DNA of 42,245 nucleotides from the IMG/VR virus record IMGVR_UViG_3300009159_004776, positions 1 to 42,245 of that record, one strand, 5' to 3'. Below, in pieces: positions 4,400-29,343 of this stretch. Source of the stretch: a virus. Within the stretch, counting starts at the first letter, position 1; the number at the start of each line of letters is the position of its first letter. The notes beneath the pieces are model-generated. The model was given only the letters and a program-made list of their open reading frames with translations, was not told where the DNA came from and did no database searches. The translations under genes were made by a program, and so were the position numbers.

Positions 4400-6754
4400 A
4401 TGATACAAGTCGTTAAACGCAGTGGAACTCGCGTTCCATTAGATATAAGCAAGATACAAAGACAGGTTGCGTTTGGCTGTTATGGTGTAGATGGTGTAAG
4501 TCCATCAATGATCGAAATCAAAGCACAGTTAGAATTCCATGATGGTATGACTACAGAGACTATTGATGCTCTGTTGTTAAAGGCCATGGTTGACTTAATT
4601 GATGAGTCTGAGAATCCGGAAATAAACAACGTTAACTATCAATATGTAGCAGGCAGACAAAAAGTCAGTATGTTGCGTAAGGAAGTGTATGGCAGTTATG
4701 AGCCTCCTAGTCTTTACAGTATTGTAAAGACAAACGTAGAACTAGGTATGTACACAGCCGATCTGCTTAAATGGTACACTGAAGAAGAATGGAATGTTAT
4801 TGATCTCTTTATTGATCACAGCAAAGACGAAACCTATACCTATGCGGCTATTGCACAGCTAGCTGAAAAGTACCTTGTACAAAATCGTGCCACAGGCAAA
4901 ATTTACGAAACACCTCAGGTTCGTTATGCTATTGCCGCAGCCACAGCATTTCACAACGAACCAACAGATAAAAGATTAAAATATGTTAAAGAGTATTACG
5001 AATGTGCCAGTGACGGGCATTTCACTCTTGCTACTCCTGTGTTGGCTGGTCTTGGAACTACTACAAAACAATTTAGTAGTTGCGTACTTATTAGCTCAGA
5101 TGATACTTTGGATAGCATCTTCGCAGCCGGAGAAATGATGGCCAAGTATGCATCAAAACGAGCCGGAATCGGCCTTGAAATAGGCAGAATTAGGCCCGTA
5201 GGTGCACCAATTCGCAACGGAGAAATCAAACATACGGGTATGATACCATTCCTGAAGAAATGGTTTGCTGATCTACGTTCATGTTCTCAAGGTGGTATTC
5301 GCAATGCCAGTTGCACAGTTACATTCCCTGTCTGGCATGCTCAGTTTGAAGATCTAATTGTGTTAAAGAACAACCAAGGTGTGGAAGAAACTCGTGTACG
5401 TCAAATGGACTACAGTGTCGTAGTCAATAAGATGTTTTGGAATCGCTACAAAAACAATGAAATGATTACCTTGTTTGATCCACATGAAGTTCCGGACTTG
5501 TACCAAGCATATTATCGTGACTCAAAAGAATTTGAAAAACTGTACTTGAAATATGAACAAGATAAGAGTATTAAAAAGAAAGTGGTATCGGCAGATGAAA
5601 TATTCAAAAACGGTATTCTTAAAGAACGCACTGATACTGGTCGAATCTATTTGGTTAATATTGACAATGTTATTAACCAAGGCCCATTTGACACCACTGT
5701 AGACCCCATCTACCAGTCTAATCTGTGCCAAGAAATTCTGTTACCCACACGACCTTTCCAACGCATTGAAGACGCAGAAGGACGCATTGCTCTTTGCACT
5801 CTAGGATCGATAAACTGGGGAGCACTTAAAAATCCTCAAGACATGCGTAAAGCCTGTCGAGTATTGGTTCGCAGTCTAAGTAACCTATTACAATATCAAG
5901 ATTTCCTAAGTGTACAAAGTAAATTAGCCAACACAGACTTTGAACCTTTAGGTGTTGGAATTACTAATCTTGCCTACTGGCATGCTCGCCGTAATATCAA
6001 ATACGGTGAAAAGGAAAGTCTTGCTGAAGTCAAACGCTGGATGGAACATCAAGCATATTACCTTACTGAAGCCAGTGTGGAATTGGCCCAAGAGCGTGGC
6101 CCATGTCTGCGTAGCGAACACACTTATTATGGTAAAGGAATATTTCCTTGGGACCGCCGTAACCCGGGCGTTGACGAACTAACAGACTTTACACCTAGTT
6201 TAGATTGGGAACCATTACGCAGCCGTATGAAACAATACGGGATCCGTAATGCTACACTAATGGCCGTGGCACCGGTTGAATCCAGCTCAGTTGTTTTAAA
6301 CTCCACCAACGGAATTGAAATGCCGATGGAATTGATTTCTGTCAAAGAATCAAAAGCTGGATCGTTTGTACAGGTTGTGCCAGAGTACAAACGTCTTAAG
6401 AATCGTTATCAACTGATGTGGGATCAAACTGACTGTGTTGACTATCTAAAAACTGCCGCGGTGTTGGCAGCATACATTGATCAAAGCCTATCAACAAACA
6501 CATTCTATAATCCTGCCCACTTTCAGGGAGCCAAAGTTCCCGGCACACTGATTGCTAAAAATCTAATGTTGGCATACAAGTGGGGAATTAAGACAATCTA
6601 CTACAGTTTGATAAACAAAGTGGGGGCCAAGGCCAACTTTGCCAACACAGCATCCGCACCGCAAGTAAATGGCATTAATGGACACGCCATTAATGCCGCA
6701 GACAACATTGTTATCTATGATGACATTGAAGACTGCGAAGCCTGTAAATTATAA
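4400..6754 (+). CDS. nrdA: Ribonucleotide reductase class Ia, alpha subunit
   Basis: 784 residues, full length. It reduces ribonucleoside diphosphates to deoxy forms for phage DNA synthesis, together with NrdB encoded directly downstream. An ATP-cone lies in residues 1-95 (MIQVVKRSGTRVPLD). Active-site cysteines are seen at C228 (QFSSCVLIS), in SNLCQEILLP (the catalytic Cys-x-Glu) and in ALCTLGSINWG. The radical-transfer tyrosine pair is in TIYYSLINK, and the C-terminal redox pair is CEACKL, as needed for re-reduction by glutaredoxin (a glutaredoxin gene lies at 8106). All residues expected for activity are present. The start has an upstream AGGT. Confidence 0.97.
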   Translation: MIQVVKRSGTRVPLDISKIQRQVAFGCYGVDGVSPSMIEIKAQLEFHDGMTTETIDALLLKAMVDLIDESENPEINNVNYQYVAGRQKVSMLRKEVYGSYEPPSLYSIVKTNVELGMYTADLLKWYTEEEWNVIDLFIDHSKDETYTYAAIAQLAEKYLVQNRATGKIYETPQVRYAIAAATAFHNEPTDKRLKYVKEYYECASDGHFTLATPVLAGLGTTTKQFSSCVLISSDDTLDSIFAAGEMMAKYASKRAGIGLEIGRIRPVGAPIRNGEIKHTGMIPFLKKWFADLRSCSQGGIRNASCTVTFPVWHAQFEDLIVLKNNQGVEETRVRQMDYSVVVNKMFWNRYKNNEMITLFDPHEVPDLYQAYYRDSKEFEKLYLKYEQDKSIKKKVVSADEIFKNGILKERTDTGRIYLVNIDNVINQGPFDTTVDPIYQSNLCQEILLPTRPFQRIEDAEGRIALCTLGSINWGALKNPQDMRKACRVLVRSLSNLLQYQDFLSVQSKLANTDFEPLGVGITNLAYWHARRNIKYGEKESLAEVKRWMEHQAYYLTEASVELAQERGPCLRSEHTYYGKGIFPWDRRNPGVDELTDFTPSLDWEPLRSRMKQYGIRNATLMAVAPVESSSVVLNSTNGIEMPMELISVKESKAGSFVQVVPEYKRLKNRYQLMWDQTDCVDYLKTAAVLAAYIDQSLSTNTFYNPAHFQGAKVPGTLIAKNLMLAYKWGIKTIYYSLINKVGAKANFANTASAPQVNGINGHAINAADNIVIYDDIEDCEACKL

Positions 6755-6765
6755 AGAGACACACT

Positions 6766-7866
6766 ATGAGTAAACAACAATACGACTTGTCGAAACAAAC
6801 AAATTATCTAAAACGTCATATGTTCCTGGATCCAGAGGGTCCTGTAACTGTGCAGAGATTTGAAGAAGTAAAATATCCACGCATTGCTAAGTTTGAAGAA
6901 TTGGCCCGTGGATTCTTTTGGGTACCAGAAGAAATCTCATTAACCAAAGATAAAATAGATCATAAGGAAGCCAGTGATGCAGTTAAGCATATCTTTACTA
7001 GCAATTTACTTCGTCAGACTGCTTTGGATAGTATTCAAGGCCGTGCGCCAAATCAAGTTTTCTCGCCAGTTATAAGTATTCCGGAACTTGAAGCATTGGT
7101 CAGTAATTGGAGCTTCTTTGAAACTAATATCCACTCAAAAAGTTACAGTCATATCATAAGGAACGTGTATGGAGTACCTAAAGAAGAATTTAACAAAATT
7201 CACGACACAGCTGAAATTGTTGGTATGGCTGCTAACATTGGTCGTTACTATGAAGATCTTCACGTGCTCAATTGCCGCAAAGAAACTGGAGAACACATTG
7301 ACACAATGGTTCACAAGCGATCCATATGGATGGCACTACACGCAAGCTATGCCTTGGAGGCTCTACGTTTCATGGTGAGTTTTGCCACCAGTTTGGCAAT
7401 GGTTGAAAACAAAATCTATATTGGCAATGGCAACATTATCAGTTTGATTCTACAAGATGAACTGCTACACGCAGAATGGACAGCCTGGTTAATTAACAAT
7501 GTAACCAAAGATGATCCAGATTTTGTTACACTGGAAACAGAATGTGCAGAAGAAGTTTACCAATTGTATTTGGAAGTAATAGGCGAAGAAAAAGCCTGGG
7601 CCGAATATCTATTCAGCCGTGGTGTAGTAATTGGTCTTAATGCTAACATTCTTAAAGACTTTGTAGATTATACTGCCTTTAACCGATTAAAAGAAATTGG
7701 CATCAAGTATTTAGAAGACCATCCTCGCCAAAGTCCTATTCCTTGGTTTAACAAACATGTAAATATCAACAAGAAGCAGACAGCACTACAGGAAAACGAA
7801 AGCACCAATTATGTAATCGGTGTTATGAGCGACACTGTAGAGTATGAAGAACTTCCTGATCTATAA
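6766..7866 (+). CDS. nrdB: Ribonucleotide reductase class Ia, beta subunit
   Basis: 366 residues. It supplies the diiron-tyrosyl radical for NrdA and starts 11 nt after nrdA, so they form one operon. FFETNIHSKSYSHIIRN (about 114-130) contains the metal ligands Glu and His and the candidate radical Tyr. LILQDELLHAEWTAWL carries the second E-x-x-H ligand pair. The spacing E-x-x-x-H in the first motif is one residue longer than in E. coli NrdB, which I think is a subfamily feature of phage proteins rather than a defect. The C-terminal tail (SDTVEYEELPDL) is acidic, like the NrdA-binding tail of other R2 proteins. Confidence 0.96.
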   Translation: MSKQQYDLSKQTNYLKRHMFLDPEGPVTVQRFEEVKYPRIAKFEELARGFFWVPEEISLTKDKIDHKEASDAVKHIFTSNLLRQTALDSIQGRAPNQVFSPVISIPELEALVSNWSFFETNIHSKSYSHIIRNVYGVPKEEFNKIHDTAEIVGMAANIGRYYEDLHVLNCRKETGEHIDTMVHKRSIWMALHASYALEALRFMVSFATSLAMVENKIYIGNGNIISLILQDELLHAEWTAWLINNVTKDDPDFVTLETECAEEVYQLYLEVIGEEKAWAEYLFSRGVVIGLNANILKDFVDYTAFNRLKEIGIKYLEDHPRQSPIPWFNKHVNINKKQTALQENESTNYVIGVMSDTVEYEELPDL

Positions 7867-11091: not shown

Positions 11092-11618
11092 AACAGAAAT
11101 TTATTGATTTATATATGGCGTGGGCAGAACGTACAGCTCAATTAAGCCATGCTGTACGTCTACAAGTGGGTGCTGTTATTGTCAAAGATGACAGCGTGAT
11201 CAGCTATGGCTACAATGGTATGCCCGCAGGTTGGGATAACAACTGCGAAGATAAAGAATACATGAGCGTAGACGCAGGAGGTTGGCTAGATCCTGATGAG
11301 ATTAAAGAACAATGGCCTTTTGAAGAAGAACCAAAAATTCAATGGTTCGGTGATGATCCTATAACTGTTACCAATAGATATAAATTGAAAACTAAACCAG
11401 AGGTATTACATGCTGAAACAAATGCGATTGCTAAATTGGCTCGATCTACAAACAGTGGTCTGGGTGCTACTATGTTTGTTACCCATGCTCCATGTATGGA
11501 GTGTGCCAAACTTATCTACCAAAGTGGTATTGGCAGTGTTCTATATCGTAACAGTTATCGTGACACTAGTGGCGTTGCGTTTTTGGAAAAATCGGGTGTA
11601 ACAGTTACACAGGTATGA
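11088..11618 (+). CDS. dCMP deaminase
   Basis: 176 residues. It converts dCMP to dUMP, feeding ThyX. Zinc-site motifs are H108-A-E110 and P135-C136-x-x-C139. The N-terminal segment LSHAVRLQVGAVIVKDD and a long insertion between residues 50 and 100, which in T4-type enzymes holds an allosteric region, match the phage family. A second structural zinc site in the insertion is possible, but only C53 is obvious. ATGA overlaps lie at both ends. Confidence 0.93.
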   Translation: MKQKFIDLYMAWAERTAQLSHAVRLQVGAVIVKDDSVISYGYNGMPAGWDNNCEDKEYMSVDAGGWLDPDEIKEQWPFEEEPKIQWFGDDPITVTNRYKLKTKPEVLHAETNAIAKLARSTNSGLGATMFVTHAPCMECAKLIYQSGIGSVLYRNSYRDTSGVAFLEKSGVTVTQV

Positions 11619-12856
11619 AAAAGAAAATATTGGTAATAGGTGCAGGCAGTGGCGGCCTACTGACTCTTTGCCAAATGTGTTCCTCGCTACCCTATGAATG
11701 GGAAGTTCATTCAGTATATGATCCTAAAATTCCAATATTGGGAGTAGGAGAAGCTACCAGTACCAATGCCCCATTCCAATTGTTTAAAGGCACAGACTTT
11801 ATACTTGAAAGAGACGCACACTATCTTGATGCCACCTACAAGTATGCTGTAAAATACACCAACTGGCGTGAACACGCATTTGACAGTGTTATTATTCCTC
11901 CAGGGCATGCCATGCACTTTGACAACACACGCCTTAAAGAATTTGTGTTTATGCGTCTCAGTGAAAGATATCCCGAACGTTTCTTTATACACGAAGGCAC
12001 TGTAGAATATTTTAAAAACATCACCAATGGTGCTGAAGTAAAAATTAACGATGTTATAGAAACATATGACTATGTTATAGACTGTAGCGGATTCCCTAAA
12101 GACTACACAGGATATACCATGGTTGATTTACCTATTAATCATGCTCTAGTAACTCCCATACACAAGCCCGGCGACTGGAATTACACTCATCATTGGGCAC
12201 ACAAACACGGATGGATGTTTGGTATTCCTTTGCAACATCGTCAAGGTTGGGGGTATCTGTACAATGATCAGATAACTTCTAAAGAAGCTGCCATGGAAGA
12301 TATGTGTGAAATTTTAAAAATTAATCCACTAGAACAAAAATTTAGAGAATACACTTTTAAACCCTACTATACAATAAAAGGATTAGTCAACGGCCGCCTG
12401 TTGAAGAATGGCAATCAATTTATGTTCTTTGAACCTATGGAGGCATTGTCTATGGAGTATTACACTAATTTAAATCAACGATATGTTGCTCTAATGCAGG
12501 GCAAGGAAACTAAACAAGAGCTAGAAAAACAAACACAGTGGTCAGTTAGTTCTTTGATATTCTTTTATAGATTTATCTATCACGGCGGATCCGTATACGA
12601 CACAGAGTTCTGGCGTGTTACTAAAGAGAAATGTAAGCGGTATCTAACCAATGACAGCGAGTTTCAAGAAATGATCAGGTATTGGCGTGATCGTAGTTAC
12701 GATCCAAATTTATCCACAGAATTAAACATGCCCCCATTCCGTGCCTATACTTGGGAACAGTTTAATAAAAATCTAGGCTATGACTACTTTGTGAAACCGG
12801 CCGCACCTCCTGTGAAAAACACTAAATTACAAATTCCTGGATTGCTGTTCGGATAA
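11615..12856 (+). CDS. Flavin-dependent halogenase (tryptophan halogenase family)
   Basis: 413 residues. FADH2-dependent halogenases put Cl, Br or I on aromatic substrates through HOX. Visible: FAD motif GAGSGG (9-14), GVGEAT, the catalytic lysine K76 in ATYKYAVKY (PrnA K79 equivalent) and the catalytic Glu in FEPMEALSMEY (PrnA E346 equivalent). The WxWxIP signature reads WMFGIP, keeping the first Trp and Ile-Pro. FAD fixation residues (DCSGF) are also present. Related viral halogenases occur in cyanophages. It faces a methyltransferase-like gene tail to tail, ending 1 nt away. The substrate is unknown. Confidence 0.8.
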   Translation: MKKKILVIGAGSGGLLTLCQMCSSLPYEWEVHSVYDPKIPILGVGEATSTNAPFQLFKGTDFILERDAHYLDATYKYAVKYTNWREHAFDSVIIPPGHAMHFDNTRLKEFVFMRLSERYPERFFIHEGTVEYFKNITNGAEVKINDVIETYDYVIDCSGFPKDYTGYTMVDLPINHALVTPIHKPGDWNYTHHWAHKHGWMFGIPLQHRQGWGYLYNDQITSKEAAMEDMCEILKINPLEQKFREYTFKPYYTIKGLVNGRLLKNGNQFMFFEPMEALSMEYYTNLNQRYVALMQGKETKQELEKQTQWSVSSLIFFYRFIYHGGSVYDTEFWRVTKEKCKRYLTNDSEFQEMIRYWRDRSYDPNLSTELNMPPFRAYTWEQFNKNLGYDYFVKPAAPPVKNTKLQIPGLLFG

Positions 12857-24289: not shown

Positions 24290-24318
24290 TTGACAGAAAC
24301 CAAAGATGATGTTAAACT
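24290..24318 (+). promoter_or_regulatory. Sigma70-type promoter
   Basis: TTGACA 24290-24295, -10 TAAACT 24313-24318, 17-nt spacer. AAAGGAG follows before the ATG at 24338. It lies back to back with the hemA upstream region. Confidence 0.6.
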
Positions 24319-24337: not shown

Positions 24338-24901
24338 ATGATCACACTTAAAGAATGGATGGAAGTCTGCAACTATAAGATCACCGAAGGTGGTGATTAT
24401 GGTTGGGGCTGTTATGGACCAAATGTACACACACTGGACAGTTGGAACCAAGATCAAGACGGATACAGTTTTTGGATCGCGTTCGATACCAAAGATGAGA
24501 CAGTTTATGAAGTTCAAGTACATGATTACAAACGTAGTCGTGCCTATCGACTGATCAATCCGGACTTTGTTAAGAAACATCGTAAAGAAAGCAAACAACG
24601 CGGTGTTGATAAAGACATGGCCTGGGATGATGTTAACTATGTTGATCTAGAAACAAACGATGACTGGATCCAGAAAGGATTGGCCATTCGTAACGGTGTT
24701 GACTATGATGACCGTGTAAGTGTTCCCGTAGAGTTTACAGATGAAGAATTGCTAACTTACATGAAAATAGCACATGATCGAGATATGACATTTAATCAGT
24801 TTGTTGAAGAAGCTCTACGTGAAATGCTTAAAGAGTTTGAGCGTGACCCCGATGCCCTAAAAGCCCGAGCCAAGCAATGGAAAACTGATCATGAGCACTG
24901 A
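24338..24901 (+). CDS. Phage protein with ribbon-helix-helix-like C-terminal part
   Basis: 187 residues with a good Shine-Dalgarno. The N-terminal 100 residues are Trp/Tyr-rich (GGDYGWGCYGPN, GYSFWIAFDTKD). The C-terminal part, RVSVPVEFTDEELLTYMKIA then HDRDMTFNQFVEEALREML (about 128-168), fits an Arc/MetJ-type ribbon-helix-helix: a short beta strand and two helices with a T-x-N-x-F turn. It could bind DNA. Related proteins are present in T4-like aquatic phages. Role unknown. Confidence 0.6.
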   Translation: MITLKEWMEVCNYKITEGGDYGWGCYGPNVHTLDSWNQDQDGYSFWIAFDTKDETVYEVQVHDYKRSRAYRLINPDFVKKHRKESKQRGVDKDMAWDDVNYVDLETNDDWIQKGLAIRNGVDYDDRVSVPVEFTDEELLTYMKIAHDRDMTFNQFVEEALREMLKEFERDPDALKARAKQWKTDHEH

Positions 24902-25667: not shown

Positions 25668-26134
25668 CCAAACGAATCTTTTACGAAAAAGTTGGGCGTA
25701 GGTATAGGCCCGTGTATGAGTACGACCAAGCAATTATGGATAGTTTTCCTAAAGGTACTCATATTGTAATGTGCTATCCTGGCGGGCAAAGCAGACGATA
25801 TAATATTGATCCTGCGTATGCACCAATGATAGCGGCTGGGCGTATAGCAGAGGACGTGATTAGTGCGGCAATTATGAGGGCCACTAACATGCGTCCTGCT
25901 AATAAAGAAACAAAGTTAACAGAAGAACAACTGCGGTGTTGGCAGGCACTAAGCAAAGCGTTCGGTAAAGAGAACCATGCTCTACAATGGCCCAGTGCTA
26001 GAGAAGCCGCTGAAGATGCAGTTAAAGCCATGCAAGAGGAAGCAGAAAAACTGTTAAATAATCCAAGCGTCAAAAAAGCCTACGATCATTTCATGCTTGT
26101 CTGCTCTTTGACCAAAGAACATGAGCATAAATGA
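25664..26134 (+). CDS. Phage protein with KAYDHFMLV tail
   Basis: 156 residues. The N-terminal 60 residues (GRRYRPVYEYDQAIMDSFPK, GTHIVMCYPGGQSRRYNI) are a conserved phage segment of unknown role. A helical part with CWQALSKAFGKENHALQWPS and AREAAEDAVKAM follows. The C terminus, NNPSVKKAYDHFMLVCSLTK, matches the tails of the proteins at 8350 and 9358. It overlaps the DD-carboxypeptidase start (ATGA). Confidence 0.65.
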   Translation: MTKRIFYEKVGRRYRPVYEYDQAIMDSFPKGTHIVMCYPGGQSRRYNIDPAYAPMIAAGRIAEDVISAAIMRATNMRPANKETKLTEEQLRCWQALSKAFGKENHALQWPSAREAAEDAVKAMQEEAEKLLNNPSVKKAYDHFMLVCSLTKEHEHK

Positions 26135-26922
26135 TACGTTTTTTATTGATATTGTTATTCTGCGGACAGGTGTTGGCCAAGTCACCAGCACCCAAAACAC
26201 CTCCTCAAGGTGTATTACTCTATAACGAAACTACTAATCAGATATTAATCGAAACTAATCCTGAATATGTAAGACCTATTGCCAGCGTTACAAAATTAAT
26301 GACCGCTATGGTAGCATTAGATTATGATAAGAATTTAACTCGTTCTCTCAAATTAGTTAAACGTACCAAAGGTATTATTCCCTACAACACTTATTCTCGT
26401 GGAGAGATCATTCACGCTATGTTGATACGCAGTGATAACAATGCTGCTGAAACACTGGCAGCAGATTACCCTGGAGGAAGAGCTGCATTTTTGACAGCAA
26501 TGAATCGCAAGGCCAGTCAGTTAAAAATGTACAACACTAACTTCGACGATCCTAGCGGATTGGATCCGCATAATGTTTCTACAATACACAATTTAAAATT
26601 GATGTTACAGGCCAGTGCCCAGTACCCGTTGATTAGAGAAATCAGTGTAAAGAAACAGGTGATGTTCGAAAAGAGATACAAGAAGAAAATTAGAAAAATT
26701 GTAATACCAAATACCAATAGTCAACTGTTGTTGGAATTTGATAACATTGTTGTAACCAAAACAGGTTTGACTAATCCAGCAGGTTGGTGCTTGGGATTGG
26801 TAGTAGAACAACATCAGCAGAGATATATTGTGGTTATTTTAGGTGCAAGAAATAAGCTCGAAAGACTTAAAATTGCCAAAGAAATAATGTATAATCATTT
26901 ATCTGATACTGATTTAAAATGA
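26131..26922 (+). CDS. Serine D-Ala-D-Ala carboxypeptidase (S11, PBP5-like)
   Basis: 263 residues. Signal peptide about 1-16 (MIRFLLILLFCGQVLA), so it is exported. Penicillin-binding motifs are S52-V-T-K55, S101-D-N103 and K210-T-G212. It trims the terminal D-Ala of peptidoglycan stem peptides in the periplasm. The PBP5 C-terminal amphipathic anchor is absent, so it may be soluble. It could modify the wall before lysis or block other phages; this is inference. The catalytic set is complete. Confidence 0.9.
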   Translation: MIRFLLILLFCGQVLAKSPAPKTPPQGVLLYNETTNQILIETNPEYVRPIASVTKLMTAMVALDYDKNLTRSLKLVKRTKGIIPYNTYSRGEIIHAMLIRSDNNAAETLAADYPGGRAAFLTAMNRKASQLKMYNTNFDDPSGLDPHNVSTIHNLKLMLQASAQYPLIREISVKKQVMFEKRYKKKIRKIVIPNTNSQLLLEFDNIVVTKTGLTNPAGWCLGLVVEQHQQRYIVVILGARNKLERLKIAKEIMYNHLSDTDLK

Positions 26923-27146
26923 TAATGTACAAAGACTTTGCTGCCGCAGGTAAATTCTGGTTAGAATATAGCGATCTAAAACAAGACGGTTGGATTGAAT
27001 TACGTATGCCTACACCCACTGTTGAAACAGAGATTATTGAAGATTGGCTATCAAGAGCAGGAATAACCCAAGTACTGGGAACTGGTCAATACTGGGTTTT
27101 TAAAAATCCTGTAGATGCAACAATGTTTAGATTAACATGGCTGTAA
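26919..27146 (+). CDS. Tandem array protein 1 (MFRLTWL tail)
   Basis: 75 residues, first of six short related proteins in a row. It ends GQYWVFKNPVDATMFRLTWL, with the shared pattern [Y/F]-x-F-[K/R]-[N/D]-x-x-D-x-x-M-F-x-L-x-W. The N-terminal part (AAAGKFWLEYSDLKQDGW) is different in each member. It overlaps the carboxypeptidase by 4 nt and the next gene by 10 nt. Such small proteins with FxLRWS ends are known to me from T4-like aquatic phages; function unknown. Confidence 0.65.
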   Translation: MIMYKDFAAAGKFWLEYSDLKQDGWIELRMPTPTVETEIIEDWLSRAGITQVLGTGQYWVFKNPVDATMFRLTWL

Positions 27147-27502
27147 GTAATCTAGAAAAACAAATTTTAGATGATATAGTCAAAGGTCTGCAGAAAGCAA
27201 TTGACAATGATATTATGAATGATATTATGAGAACACTGTTTGGAGAAACATACGAATTGAACATCAGTACAGGTACAGTATCTGGGACGCAGTATCAGAC
27301 TGCTATGCCTAGTTGGACGCCGTCAAGACACGGTTGGCATAATCCAGAATGGAATGAAATGATAGAGTGGTGTGTAAAGATGTTTGGACCAACTGCCAAG
27401 GACGGAGTCTGGACTCCCGATGAACGTTGGTACGCTAACAATGCTAAATTTTGGTTCCGCGATGAAGCGGATTTGTTAATGTTTGTTTTGAGGTGGTCAT
27501 GA
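27137..27502 (+). CDS. Tandem array protein 2 (MFVLRWS tail)
   Basis: 121 residues, the longest member. The N-terminal helix (QILDDIVKGLQKAIDNDI) is unique to it. The middle, HGWHNPEWNEMIEWCVKMFG, fits the W-x-x-E-W-C segment found in members 4 and 5. The tail is AKFWFRDEADLLMFVLRWS. Its last codons (AGG TGG TCA TGA) contain an AGGTGG that can serve as Shine-Dalgarno for the next ATG. Confidence 0.65.
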   Translation: MAVSNLEKQILDDIVKGLQKAIDNDIMNDIMRTLFGETYELNISTGTVSGTQYQTAMPSWTPSRHGWHNPEWNEMIEWCVKMFGPTAKDGVWTPDERWYANNAKFWFRDEADLLMFVLRWS

Positions 27503-27684
27503 GATACAAAGTAACTCTAGTACATACACAGGGTTGGGAACCAAGAGATTGGGCTAGAGAACATTGCCTAAGTTATCTTTCTTGCACCCTACACGGAATT
27601 TTTGGTGACGGAGCCAAACTCTTTATGGACTATCATTTCAATGAAGAGAAAGATTTAACAATGTTTTTATTAAGGTGGTCATAA
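27499..27684 (+). CDS. Tandem array protein 3 (MFLLRWS tail)
   Basis: About 61 residues from the ATG at 27499, which overlaps the previous TGA (ATGA); an in-frame GTG 6 nt upstream is less likely. WEPRDWAREHCLSYLSC matches the W-x-x-x-H/E-C segment of the array, and the tail is HFNEEKDLTMFLLRWS. It ends in TAATG with the next gene, and AGGTGG lies 8 nt before that ATG. Confidence 0.62.
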   Translation: MRYKVTLVHTQGWEPRDWAREHCLSYLSCTLHGIFGDGAKLFMDYHFNEEKDLTMFLLRWS

Positions 27685-27968
27685 TGGCAACAGCTCCCAG
27701 TATCAGTAGTATTGTTGGTGGATTAAACATAGGTTCAGATCACGAACTGCGTCCTATGAAAACTGGTAAGGCCAAAGGTCTGGGTATGGAATATACCTGG
27801 GTTGAAATTGCTCGAACAGAATCTACTCCTTTGGATATTAATGAACAAGCTCAGACATGGTGCCGAGAACGATTTGGCCGTGCCGGTGTTCGCTGGTTTG
27901 AAAAGAAAGATAAGTTTTATTTTAAAAACGAAAAAGACTTGACTATGTTTTTGCTGATGTGGTCATGA
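27684..27968 (+). CDS. Tandem array protein 4 (MFLLMWS tail)
   Basis: About 94 residues from the ATG at 27684 (MATAPSISSIVGG). The N-terminal 45 residues are unique. Then EQAQTWCRERFGRAGVRWFE, and the tail FYFKNEKDLTMFLLMWS, which is nearly the same as member 3 (EKDLTMFLLxWS). That points to a recent duplication of the C-terminal part. Confidence 0.62.
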   Translation: MATAPSISSIVGGLNIGSDHELRPMKTGKAKGLGMEYTWVEIARTESTPLDINEQAQTWCRERFGRAGVRWFEKKDKFYFKNEKDLTMFLLMWS

Positions 27969-28174
27969 GAGATCTAACAGATATATGGTTTGTTGCTAGT
28001 GTACCTGCACCTATTGAAGACCGTGTAAGCAAACATGTTTACCAAGGATGGTCGCCCTGTATGTGGTGGTGTGCCGAACATTTCGAATCACAGAATTGGC
28101 GTTTTGTTGGAGAAGGGGTATTTGAGTTTAGAAGATCCGAAGATCATTTGATGTTCATATTAAGGTGGGCATAA
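27965..28174 (+). CDS. Tandem array protein 5 (MFILRWA tail)
   Basis: About 69 residues from the ATG at 27965 (ATGA overlap). WSPCMWWCAEHFESQNWRFV is the W/C/H-x-F segment, and the tail is FEFRRSEDHLMFILRWA. It ends TAATG with member 6, with AAGGTGGG in its last codons before that ATG. Confidence 0.62.
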   Translation: MRDLTDIWFVASVPAPIEDRVSKHVYQGWSPCMWWCAEHFESQNWRFVGEGVFEFRRSEDHLMFILRWA

Positions 28175-28359
28175 TGGAACTCGAACACGAATACCACGGA
28201 ATTGAAGTAACTAGATTTAACCAAAAATTAATCGATCATTTGGAAAACAAGTACGGCCCTCCGGGCGACCGTTGGTTTTGCCGAGTAGGAACCTGGACTT
28301 CAACTATATACTTTAAAGATCCTAAAGATCACCTAATGACCCTGCTGGAATTAGCGTAA
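28174..28359 (+). CDS. Tandem array protein 6 (divergent tail)
   Basis: About 61 residues from the ATG at 28174. LIDHLENKYGPPGDRWFCRV and the tail IYFKDPKDHLMTLLELA keep the D-x-L-M-x-x-L core but lose the LRW end, as expected for the last gene, which has no following start to serve. Confidence 0.6.
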   Translation: MELEHEYHGIEVTRFNQKLIDHLENKYGPPGDRWFCRVGTWTSTIYFKDPKDHLMTLLELA

Positions 28360-28396: not shown

Positions 28397-29041
28397 ATGA
28401 AACCAACAATAGCATTGTTTATTCAAGATCCTAAATGTTCGATCCAGTGTGGGAATGGAATGATGCAAGCCCTTGGGCAACACTATAATTTCAAAATCTT
28501 TTCTAAAAACGAAGTTGAACGGGTGTTTTTTGATGATGTGGATATAGTGGCATTTCCGGGCGGAATAGGCGATAGCGATAGTTGGCACAAGATATTAAAA
28601 CCTAATAAAAAGAGAGTAGTAGAGTTCTTGCAAAATGGTGGCCGATACTTAGGAATCTGTATGGGCGCTTATTGGGCAGGATCGAACTACTTTAATATTC
28701 TAAAAGATGTAGATGCTGTACAATACCTAAAACGTCCCGGCACAGACACCCGCAGACCACACGCTAAAAGCATAGCCATAAACTGGCAAGGTAATCCTAT
28801 GAATATGTTTTGGTATGACGGCTGTGCTTTAGTAGGCAATAACACTAAATTTGAAACTGTGGCAACTTATGCCAATGGTGATGCTATGGCGATATTCCAA
28901 AATCGAATTGGCATAATAGGATGCCACCCTGAAAGCGAAAAGTTTTGGTATGATAGTTATTCATGGTTACACGGCAAGTATCACAATGGACGCCATCACC
29001 AGTTGTTGATTGATTTTACCAATCAACTAATGGATCGTTGA
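28397..29041 (+). CDS. Glutamine amidotransferase-like protein (BPL_N type)
   Basis: 214 residues. VDIVAFPGGIGDSDSWHKIL (about 49-68) and GGRYLGICMGAYWAGSNYF (about 83-101) match the BPL_N/class I amidotransferase fold, with Cys91 in GICMGAYW as the nucleophile. A downstream IIGCHPESEKFWY supplies the His and Glu of a possible triad. Proteins of this type are found beside biotin ligase and in aquatic phages. The reaction is unknown. Confidence 0.75.
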   Translation: MKPTIALFIQDPKCSIQCGNGMMQALGQHYNFKIFSKNEVERVFFDDVDIVAFPGGIGDSDSWHKILKPNKKRVVEFLQNGGRYLGICMGAYWAGSNYFNILKDVDAVQYLKRPGTDTRRPHAKSIAINWQGNPMNMFWYDGCALVGNNTKFETVATYANGDAMAIFQNRIGIIGCHPESEKFWYDSYSWLHGKYHNGRHHQLLIDFTNQLMDR

Positions 29042-29066
29042 CATAAACAGCGTTTTCCTGTATAAT
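29038..29066 (+). promoter_or_regulatory. Consensus sigma70 promoter
   Basis: TTGACA 29038-29043 and TATAAT 29061-29066, 17-nt spacer: a perfect match. The -35 overlaps the stop codon of the amidotransferase-like gene. Confidence 0.85.
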
Positions 29067-29097: not shown

Positions 29098-29343
29098 ATG
29101 GGTACTCAAACTGATTACTTTAATGAAAAAGGCTACAAACCTACTTACTTCATAGGAGATCGCGTATTCGGACGTTGGAATAATATTCCGTTTATTGGCA
29201 GTGTTGGTAACGACACAATAATCAGCGAAATTGAAGGTCCTCGTATTTCAGTTATGCCCGATCTACCAATTAGATATGAAGGTAAAACACACAATATTAT
29301 CATTGTAAAACACAAACAGATTAACAAACTAAAGGAATTTTAA
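29098..29343 (+). CDS. Small phage protein of unknown function
   Basis: 81 residues with GGAG upstream and a perfect host-type promoter. Beta-rich (YFIGDRVFGRWNNIPFIGSV, ending with IIIVKHKQINKLKEF), like SH3-type barrels. I have seen this type of small basic protein in T4-like aquatic phages, but without a function. Probably early expressed. Confidence 0.6.
   Translation: MGTQTDYFNEKGYKPTYFIGDRVFGRWNNIPFIGSVGNDTIISEIEGPRISVMPDLPIRYEGKTHNIIIVKHKQINKLKEF

Follow-up and report, generated by a model that had tools for sequence, protein, structure and literature searches.

Translational coupling of overlapping genes by termination and reinitiation, with a Shine-Dalgarno (SD) sequence inside the upstream gene, is an established process (PMC6728339; reviewed in PMC12548453), and removal of the SD lowered reinitiation in four of five gene pairs tested in E. 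coli (Huber et al. 2019, PMC6728339). Several systems of small phage genes invite comparison. The PeSL cassettes of T4-type phages (Arbiol 2010, Comeau 2014), as summarized in PMC4503421, are transcriptional, with a promoter and a stem-loop between genes. Cyanophage S-PM2 has an "ORFanage" of 33 tightly packed ORFans (PMC4503421). Bacillus phage G carries about 35 zinc-ribbon copies, reported in PMC7824862 as a lineage-specific expansion in jumbo phages. Coupling through an intragenic SD is therefore already known; what is new here is its fixation in the signature motif of a protein family, repeated along arrays of its members. A literature search found no description of the family or of a family-wide SD encoded in protein tails.

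The array studied lies in a virus record of 42,245 bases (IMG/VR IMGVR_UViG_3300009159_004776), the whole of which is called the window below; its gene starts are predictions. The initial annotation described six small genes in tandem at 26919-28359, and all six are present on the plus strand, each with its own C-terminal tail and family profile score, as follows.

26919 to 27146, plus strand: array gene 1, 75 residues, tail MFRLTWL, profile E 2e-13
27137 to 27502, plus strand: array gene 2, 121 residues, tail MFVLRWS, profile E 9e-22
27499 to 27684, plus strand: array gene 3, 61 residues, tail MFLLRWS, ATGA overlap with gene 2, profile E 2e-12
27684 to 27968, plus strand: array gene 4, 94 residues, tail MFLLMWS, TAATG overlap with gene 3, profile E 2e-28
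27965 to 28174, plus strand: array gene 5, 69 residues, tail MFILRWA, ATGA overlap with gene 4, profile E 2e-19, structure model with pLDDT 88
28174 to 28359, plus strand: array gene 6, end of the array, 61 residues, tail MTLLELA, TAATG overlap with gene 5, profile E 2e-16

Directly upstream of gene 1 is a D-alanyl-D-alanine carboxypeptidase gene (Peptidase_S11, E 1.4e-40; 26131-26922, plus strand), whose stop forms an ATGA overlap with the start of gene 1. After gene 6, the next gene starts beyond a gap of 38 nt. Elsewhere in the window are genes for both subunits of a class Ia ribonucleotide reductase (4400-7866, plus strand) and a tryptophan halogenase-like gene (11615-12856, plus strand; PHROG E 1.6e-73, Pfam E 8e-28).

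Pairing energies were computed by ViennaRNA duplex folding of the 20 nt ahead of each start against the canonical anti-SD sequence GAUCACCUCCUUA, which is assumed and may not be that of the host. Four tails of the array contain a predicted site for the following gene.

27490 to 27498, plus strand: GAGGTGGTC, the Leu-Arg-Trp-Ser codons of gene 2, predicted SD for gene 3, nine anti-SD pairs, -14.1 kcal/mol
27673 to 27678, plus strand: AGGTGG, the Arg-Trp codons of gene 3, predicted SD for gene 4, -12.8 kcal/mol
27956 to 27964, plus strand: GATGTGGTC, degenerate tail site of gene 4 (ATGTGG, Met replacing Arg) ahead of gene 5, -7.5 kcal/mol
28163 to 28168, plus strand: AGGTGG, the Arg-Trp codons of gene 5, predicted SD for gene 6, -8.2 kcal/mol

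AGGTGG had been said to occur in most junctions, 5-8 nt before the next ATG. Counted from AGG, this spacing and hexamer hold for junctions 2-3, 3-4 and 5-6 (three of five), and fail for 1-2 and 4-5. Likewise, the ATGA or TAATG overlap, at -4 or -1, is found in four of the five junctions. The exception is junction 1-2, ACATGG (27135-27140), in which the ATG of gene 2 is formed within the Thr-Trp codons of gene 1, at -10. Genes 1 and 2 have weak pairing ahead of their starts, -2.6 and -2.4 kcal/mol. That gene 6 lacks LRW, its tail being MTLLELA, was read correctly. AGG is rare in the window, as had been suspected (23 of 445 Arg codons in large ORFs, or 5%; CGG makes up 3%), while all three tail Arg residues of the array use it, with p about 1e-4 given the 5% background. 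Two sequence elements of intragenic-SD coupling are thus present, a stop/start overlap and an SD in the last codons of the preceding gene. The array is like the established systems in these two respects and unlike them in that the SD sits in the signature motif of a repeated family, is unusually strong, and recurs at successive junctions.

In the window, a profile built from 13 sequences recognizes the six array genes and no others (E 2e-28 to 2e-12); ten related IMG/VR contigs have two to five members apiece. Iterating the profile over 1.3 Mb of further loci brings the family to several hundred distinct members or more. The initial annotation proposed a shared C-terminal tail attached to differing N-terminal parts; the tail is indeed common, but the common part extends to a whole domain of about 65 residues, with the consensus E-[I/M]-x-x-W-C-x-E-N-F-G ... 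R-W ... F-x-F-x-[D/N]-E-x-D-A-T-M-F-x-L-R-W-S. Searches of Pfam, PHROGs, NCBIfam and PADLOC with the six window genes and 36 further members gave nothing better than E 0.01, and no defence-system model matched the family. By these comparisons, the small phage proteins form an uncatalogued family. Structural prediction of the common tail, proposed as a check, placed LRW in the last helix of a confident model of gene 5 (pLDDT 88, pTM 0.72), which consists of a strand, a helix, two strands and this C-terminal helix. Foldseek found no significant counterpart of the gene 5 model in the PDB (best E 2.5). Among predicted viral structures in BFVD, the best match was an uncharacterised protein of an uncultured member of Caudovirales (E 4e-5).

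Copy number in related phages was another suggested comparison. At E 0.01, single records hold up to 33 copies (in a 320-kb contig and in Sinorhizobium phage Phosso); a 192-kb contig has 22 and a 93-kb contig 17. Searching phage records with the DNA of the array region returned no match, and protein searches of phage records returned weak matches only, which pointed to Phosso. In this 469-kb genome (PV764938), the 13-sequence profile makes 26 weak matches, and 33 profile matches are found at E 0.01, the best at E 1.8e-10 within that genome. The family domain, as judged by these matches, is common to the jumbo phage Phosso. An AGG-specific tail pattern run against a genome collection found one match, in a 6.4-kb contig binned as a Bacteroidetes MAG, which is insufficient for naming a host. 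The resemblance to phage G lies in tens of copies of one small domain per phage genome; the domain there is a different one, and the account in PMC7824862, so far as consulted, describes no ribosome site encoded in its tail.

The S-PM2 ORFanage resembles the arrays as a dense run of small, overlapping genes of unknown function whose order is not conserved in metagenomes. It differs in that its proteins fall outside this family and lack the shared LRW tail. As a possible source of the family it was rejected, since a profile search of 46 S-PM2 proteins gave a best E of 0.02 and none had the tail. Many unrelated ORFs of the ORFanage (locus L193, 1287-10951) have Asp or Asn-Asp at the C-terminus. 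Their tail, AATGACTGA or GATGACTGA, gives a -8 overlap with the ATG of the following ORF and may be a further recurrent tail of use to it.

For a census of tail codons, IMG/VR was scanned with a pattern, D-x-[Axx]-M-F-x-L-R-W, that accepted any of the six Arg codons in order to avoid bias toward AGG. Scan matches and profile hits, with duplicates removed by tail DNA, gave at least 481 distinct tails and 120-odd further phage loci. By predicted gene starts, the largest overlap classes among the 481 tails listed are -4 (231) and -1 (65). Tails with an in-frame ATG at -10 were left out of the ATGA count because such an ATG forces AGA. Among the tails listed, the tail Arg is AGG in 144 of 168 with an ATGA overlap (86%), in 46 of 55 with a TAATG overlap (84%), in 31 of 38 with a GTG or TTG start nearby (GTGA/TTGA, 82%), and in 9 of 32 with no start within 8 nt (28%). 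Coupled and uncoupled tails listed differ by Fisher's test at p 7e-11; with one vote per 40%-identity cluster of the tails listed, the counts are 143 of 172 coupled against 8 of 30 uncoupled (p 2e-9). Across the members listed, other Arg residues of the same domain use AGG in 139 of 1731 cases (8%), and an internal Arg-Trp that serves as a control uses it in 11 of 164 (7%). AGG in follower-less tails (28%) exceeds the 8% background, with p 8e-4 for the tails listed, an excess that ancestry or unseen starts may explain. The codon signal across the 120-odd further phage loci is far beyond chance.

Could LRW be conserved purely for folding or binding of the protein, with AGG arising from codon bias, ancestry or recent duplication? 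The location of the motif within the last helix of a confident model would suit this explanation, as would the persistence of F-x-L-[R/K/T]-W, with other codons, in genes without followers and in Phosso. Yet where the protein tail is unchanged, the codon still varies according to the follower. When each uncoupled member was paired with its closest coupled relative in another locus, AGG was present in the coupled one only in 18 pairs of the members listed, and the reverse was seen in none. Some of these pairs agree in their tail protein; in one, the identical tail TMFMLRWA is encoded with CGT where uncoupled and with AGG where coupled. The low use of AGG elsewhere in the domain, at 7-8%, and the survival of the signal under 40%-identity clustering also count against it. 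As a sole explanation pure protein conservation is contradicted, and we regard it as very improbable. The suggestion that the tail codons are selected partly at the RNA level is accordingly borne out, by AGG at 82-86% in coupled against 28% in follower-less tails and by the codon switch of 18 to 0.

A second explanation would have AGG act as a rare codon that slows the ribosome ahead of the stop and so eases coupling with no SD involved, in keeping with its 5% share of Arg codons in the window. CGG is equally rare, yet at the tail Arg it occurs in 5-6% of ATGA tails listed against 8% elsewhere in the domain, which is no enrichment, and rare-codon pausing was rejected on this ground. The neighboring codons also speak against pausing. 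Among the tails listed, G is the last base of the Leu codon preceding Arg in about 75% of the coupled and 38% of the uncoupled ones, TTG or CTG extending GAGG, and for the final Ser TCA is preferred over AGT, extending AGGTGGTC; codon rarity predicts neither. We consider that pausing has scarcely any chance of being the cause.

Codon choice in the tails strengthens pairing with the anti-SD. In 391 overlapping junctions listed, the mean pairing of the last seven codons is -9.9 kcal/mol, while synonymous versions built with the codon usage of the family average -5.2; for 48 tails listed that have no start within 30 nt, the corresponding values are -6.2 and -5.2. By class, the junctions listed average -10.2 kcal/mol for ATGA and -9.9 for TAATG. 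A typical tail, TTGAGGTGGTC before ATG, pairs at -14.1 kcal/mol through nine uninterrupted base pairs, of which inspection shows one to be G-U. The junction type represented by genes 1 and 2 of the window occurs in 35 tails among those listed, the next ATG lying at -10 within xxA-TGG (ACA, AAA or AGA followed by Trp); in this class no SD was detectable by duplex energy, the mean being -2.2 kcal/mol. Because the codon bias tracks the follower and codon choice roughly doubles pairing, the tail very probably has a dual use, its codons spelling a protein motif and at the same time forming the ribosome site of the next gene.

The results so far could also be produced by an ordinary intragenic SD at overlapping genes that falls on Arg-Trp by chance, in which case the family would not be special. 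Such SDs are frequent: in 20 of 24 prokaryote groups they precede about 50% or more of the overlapping starts (PMC6728339). The tail codons track the follower just as this explanation predicts. Other overlapping genes of the same loci, on the other hand, are far weaker: they pair at -4.65 kcal/mol, against -8.6 for family junctions, with energies below -8.4 kcal/mol in 13% against 51%, and AGGTGG is present in 3% against 52%. At least two of 25 sampled "other" junctions resemble overlooked members of the family, which would make the contrast, if anything, larger than stated. The family site is moreover fixed within a conserved motif, and both the Arg residue and the distance from Trp to the stop are shifted along with it, as given below. 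We judge this explanation unlikely, though a good deal less so than the two above.

The tail is also constrained as protein, because the motif persists without a follower while using other codons. Follower-less genes still end in L-[R/K/T]-[W/F/Y], with codons that include CGT, CGA, CGC and AGA, and Phosso tails take the form F-K-L-[T/R/A]-[W/F], mostly without AGG. Tails of the LRW type that are kept with no follower and with other Arg codons had been named beforehand as evidence contrary to selection at the RNA level; they do occur, and a tail kept for RNA only is not supported. Nor does the loss of LRW in gene 6 represent a rule for genes without a follower: it is a single case, and other follower-less genes, as well as relatives of gene 6, keep the tail. 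From these comparisons, the tail motif is a protein feature with codons recruited for use at the RNA level. That RNA-level pressure reaches the protein too. Among the tails listed, Arg is used over Lys in 190 of 236 coupled against 22 of 43 uncoupled tails (p 1e-4). A spacing of exactly one residue between Trp and the stop is found in 253 of 307 coupled against 32 of 53 uncoupled tails (p 7e-4). The tail Trp itself shows no difference between coupled and uncoupled tails listed (p 0.33).

Growth of the array by recent duplication of a cassette, as first supposed, does not agree with the relationships of its genes. For every gene of the array, the closest relative listed sits in another phage. 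Gene 4 has the nearest, at 83% identity; those of genes 2, 5 and 6 stand at 48-56%, 54% and 52%, that of gene 3 at 45% and that of gene 1 at 33%. Within the window, genes 2 and 4 reach at most 43% over the tail region and gene 3 has a short tail match; similarity among the remaining array genes was not detected. In 360 adjacent family pairs listed, the neighbors are highly varied. Given the closest relatives listed and the shuffled neighbors, recent local duplication was rejected as the origin, and the window array is therefore taken to be an assembly of old paralogues. AGG use does not differ with the kind of follower, at 79% before family and 78% before non-family followers among the tails listed, which indicates that the site serves any following gene.

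Sigma-70-like promoters, accepted at a score of at least 11/12, are placed differently. Among the tails listed, one lies within 70 nt after 13 of 47 uncoupled tails and after 1 of 324 coupled tails. One lies upstream of 12 of 113 uncoupled and 4 of 454 coupled family starts, while random windows gave 12 of 1500. Two promoters flank the array in the window.

24290 to 24318, plus strand: TTGACA-17-TAAACT, ahead of a run of genes beginning at 24338 and leading into the array
29038 to 29066, plus strand: perfect sigma-70 promoter TTGACA-17-TATAAT, ahead of the gene at 29098

Because promoters occur at uncoupled ends and almost never between coupled genes, the arrays resemble transcription units for a host-type polymerase, and the pattern suggests that they are expressed early. 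The strong sigma-70 promoters that adjoin follower-less ends and uncoupled starts also lead to our best guess for the proteins, a tentative one that we put somewhat short of even, namely that they are early accessory or host-interaction proteins. PeSL cassettes, as portrayed in the summary cited, are similar in comprising small accessory genes of large phages in shuffled units with host-like early promoters near. The early promoter between shuffled genes that characterizes them was not seen as a regular element in the tails listed, where enrichment is confined to array ends; the portable signal here is instead translational and lies inside the coding tail.

Taken on their sequence features, the array genes are most likely plug-in cassettes of a translational relay. 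Each cassette encodes a single small domain (beta, alpha, beta, beta, C-terminal alpha), and F-x-L-R-W-[S/A/G]-stop closes its last helix. Coupled genes favor TTG AGG TGG TCA for L-R-W-S, giving GAGGUGGUC, with predicted nine-base pairing to the 3' end of 16S rRNA, and the next start (ATGA, TAATG or GTGA) follows about 5-8 nt past AGG. A terminating ribosome would then be re-docked at that start, reinitiation being what the arrangement of the junctions predicts. Every cassette would in this way supply a ribosome site for any follower, of the family or not, and cassettes could presumably be exchanged easily. On this reading the protein motif is kept for the protein itself as well; where a follower exists, RNA-level pressure tunes the codons, the choice of Arg rather than Lys, and the one-residue spacing of Trp and stop. 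A broader proposal, which we hold to be about evenly balanced between right and wrong, is that selection has acted on the signature C-terminal motif also as a ribosome-binding site that travels with the gene, making any order of cassettes translatable, and that this allowed tens of shuffled paralogues to accumulate per genome.

The study delimits a protein family that was missing from the catalogues searched and reaches up to 33 copies per genome. Its tails offer a natural case, statistically clean, in which one sequence is read both as a protein motif and as a ribosome site, at hundreds of paralogous junctions, with controls built into the census in the form of followers present or absent, an internal Arg-Trp, and synonymous versions. 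Two questions become testable with it: how the C-termini of proteins are shaped by translational signals, and how expression of long runs of interchangeable small genes is maintained in large phages.
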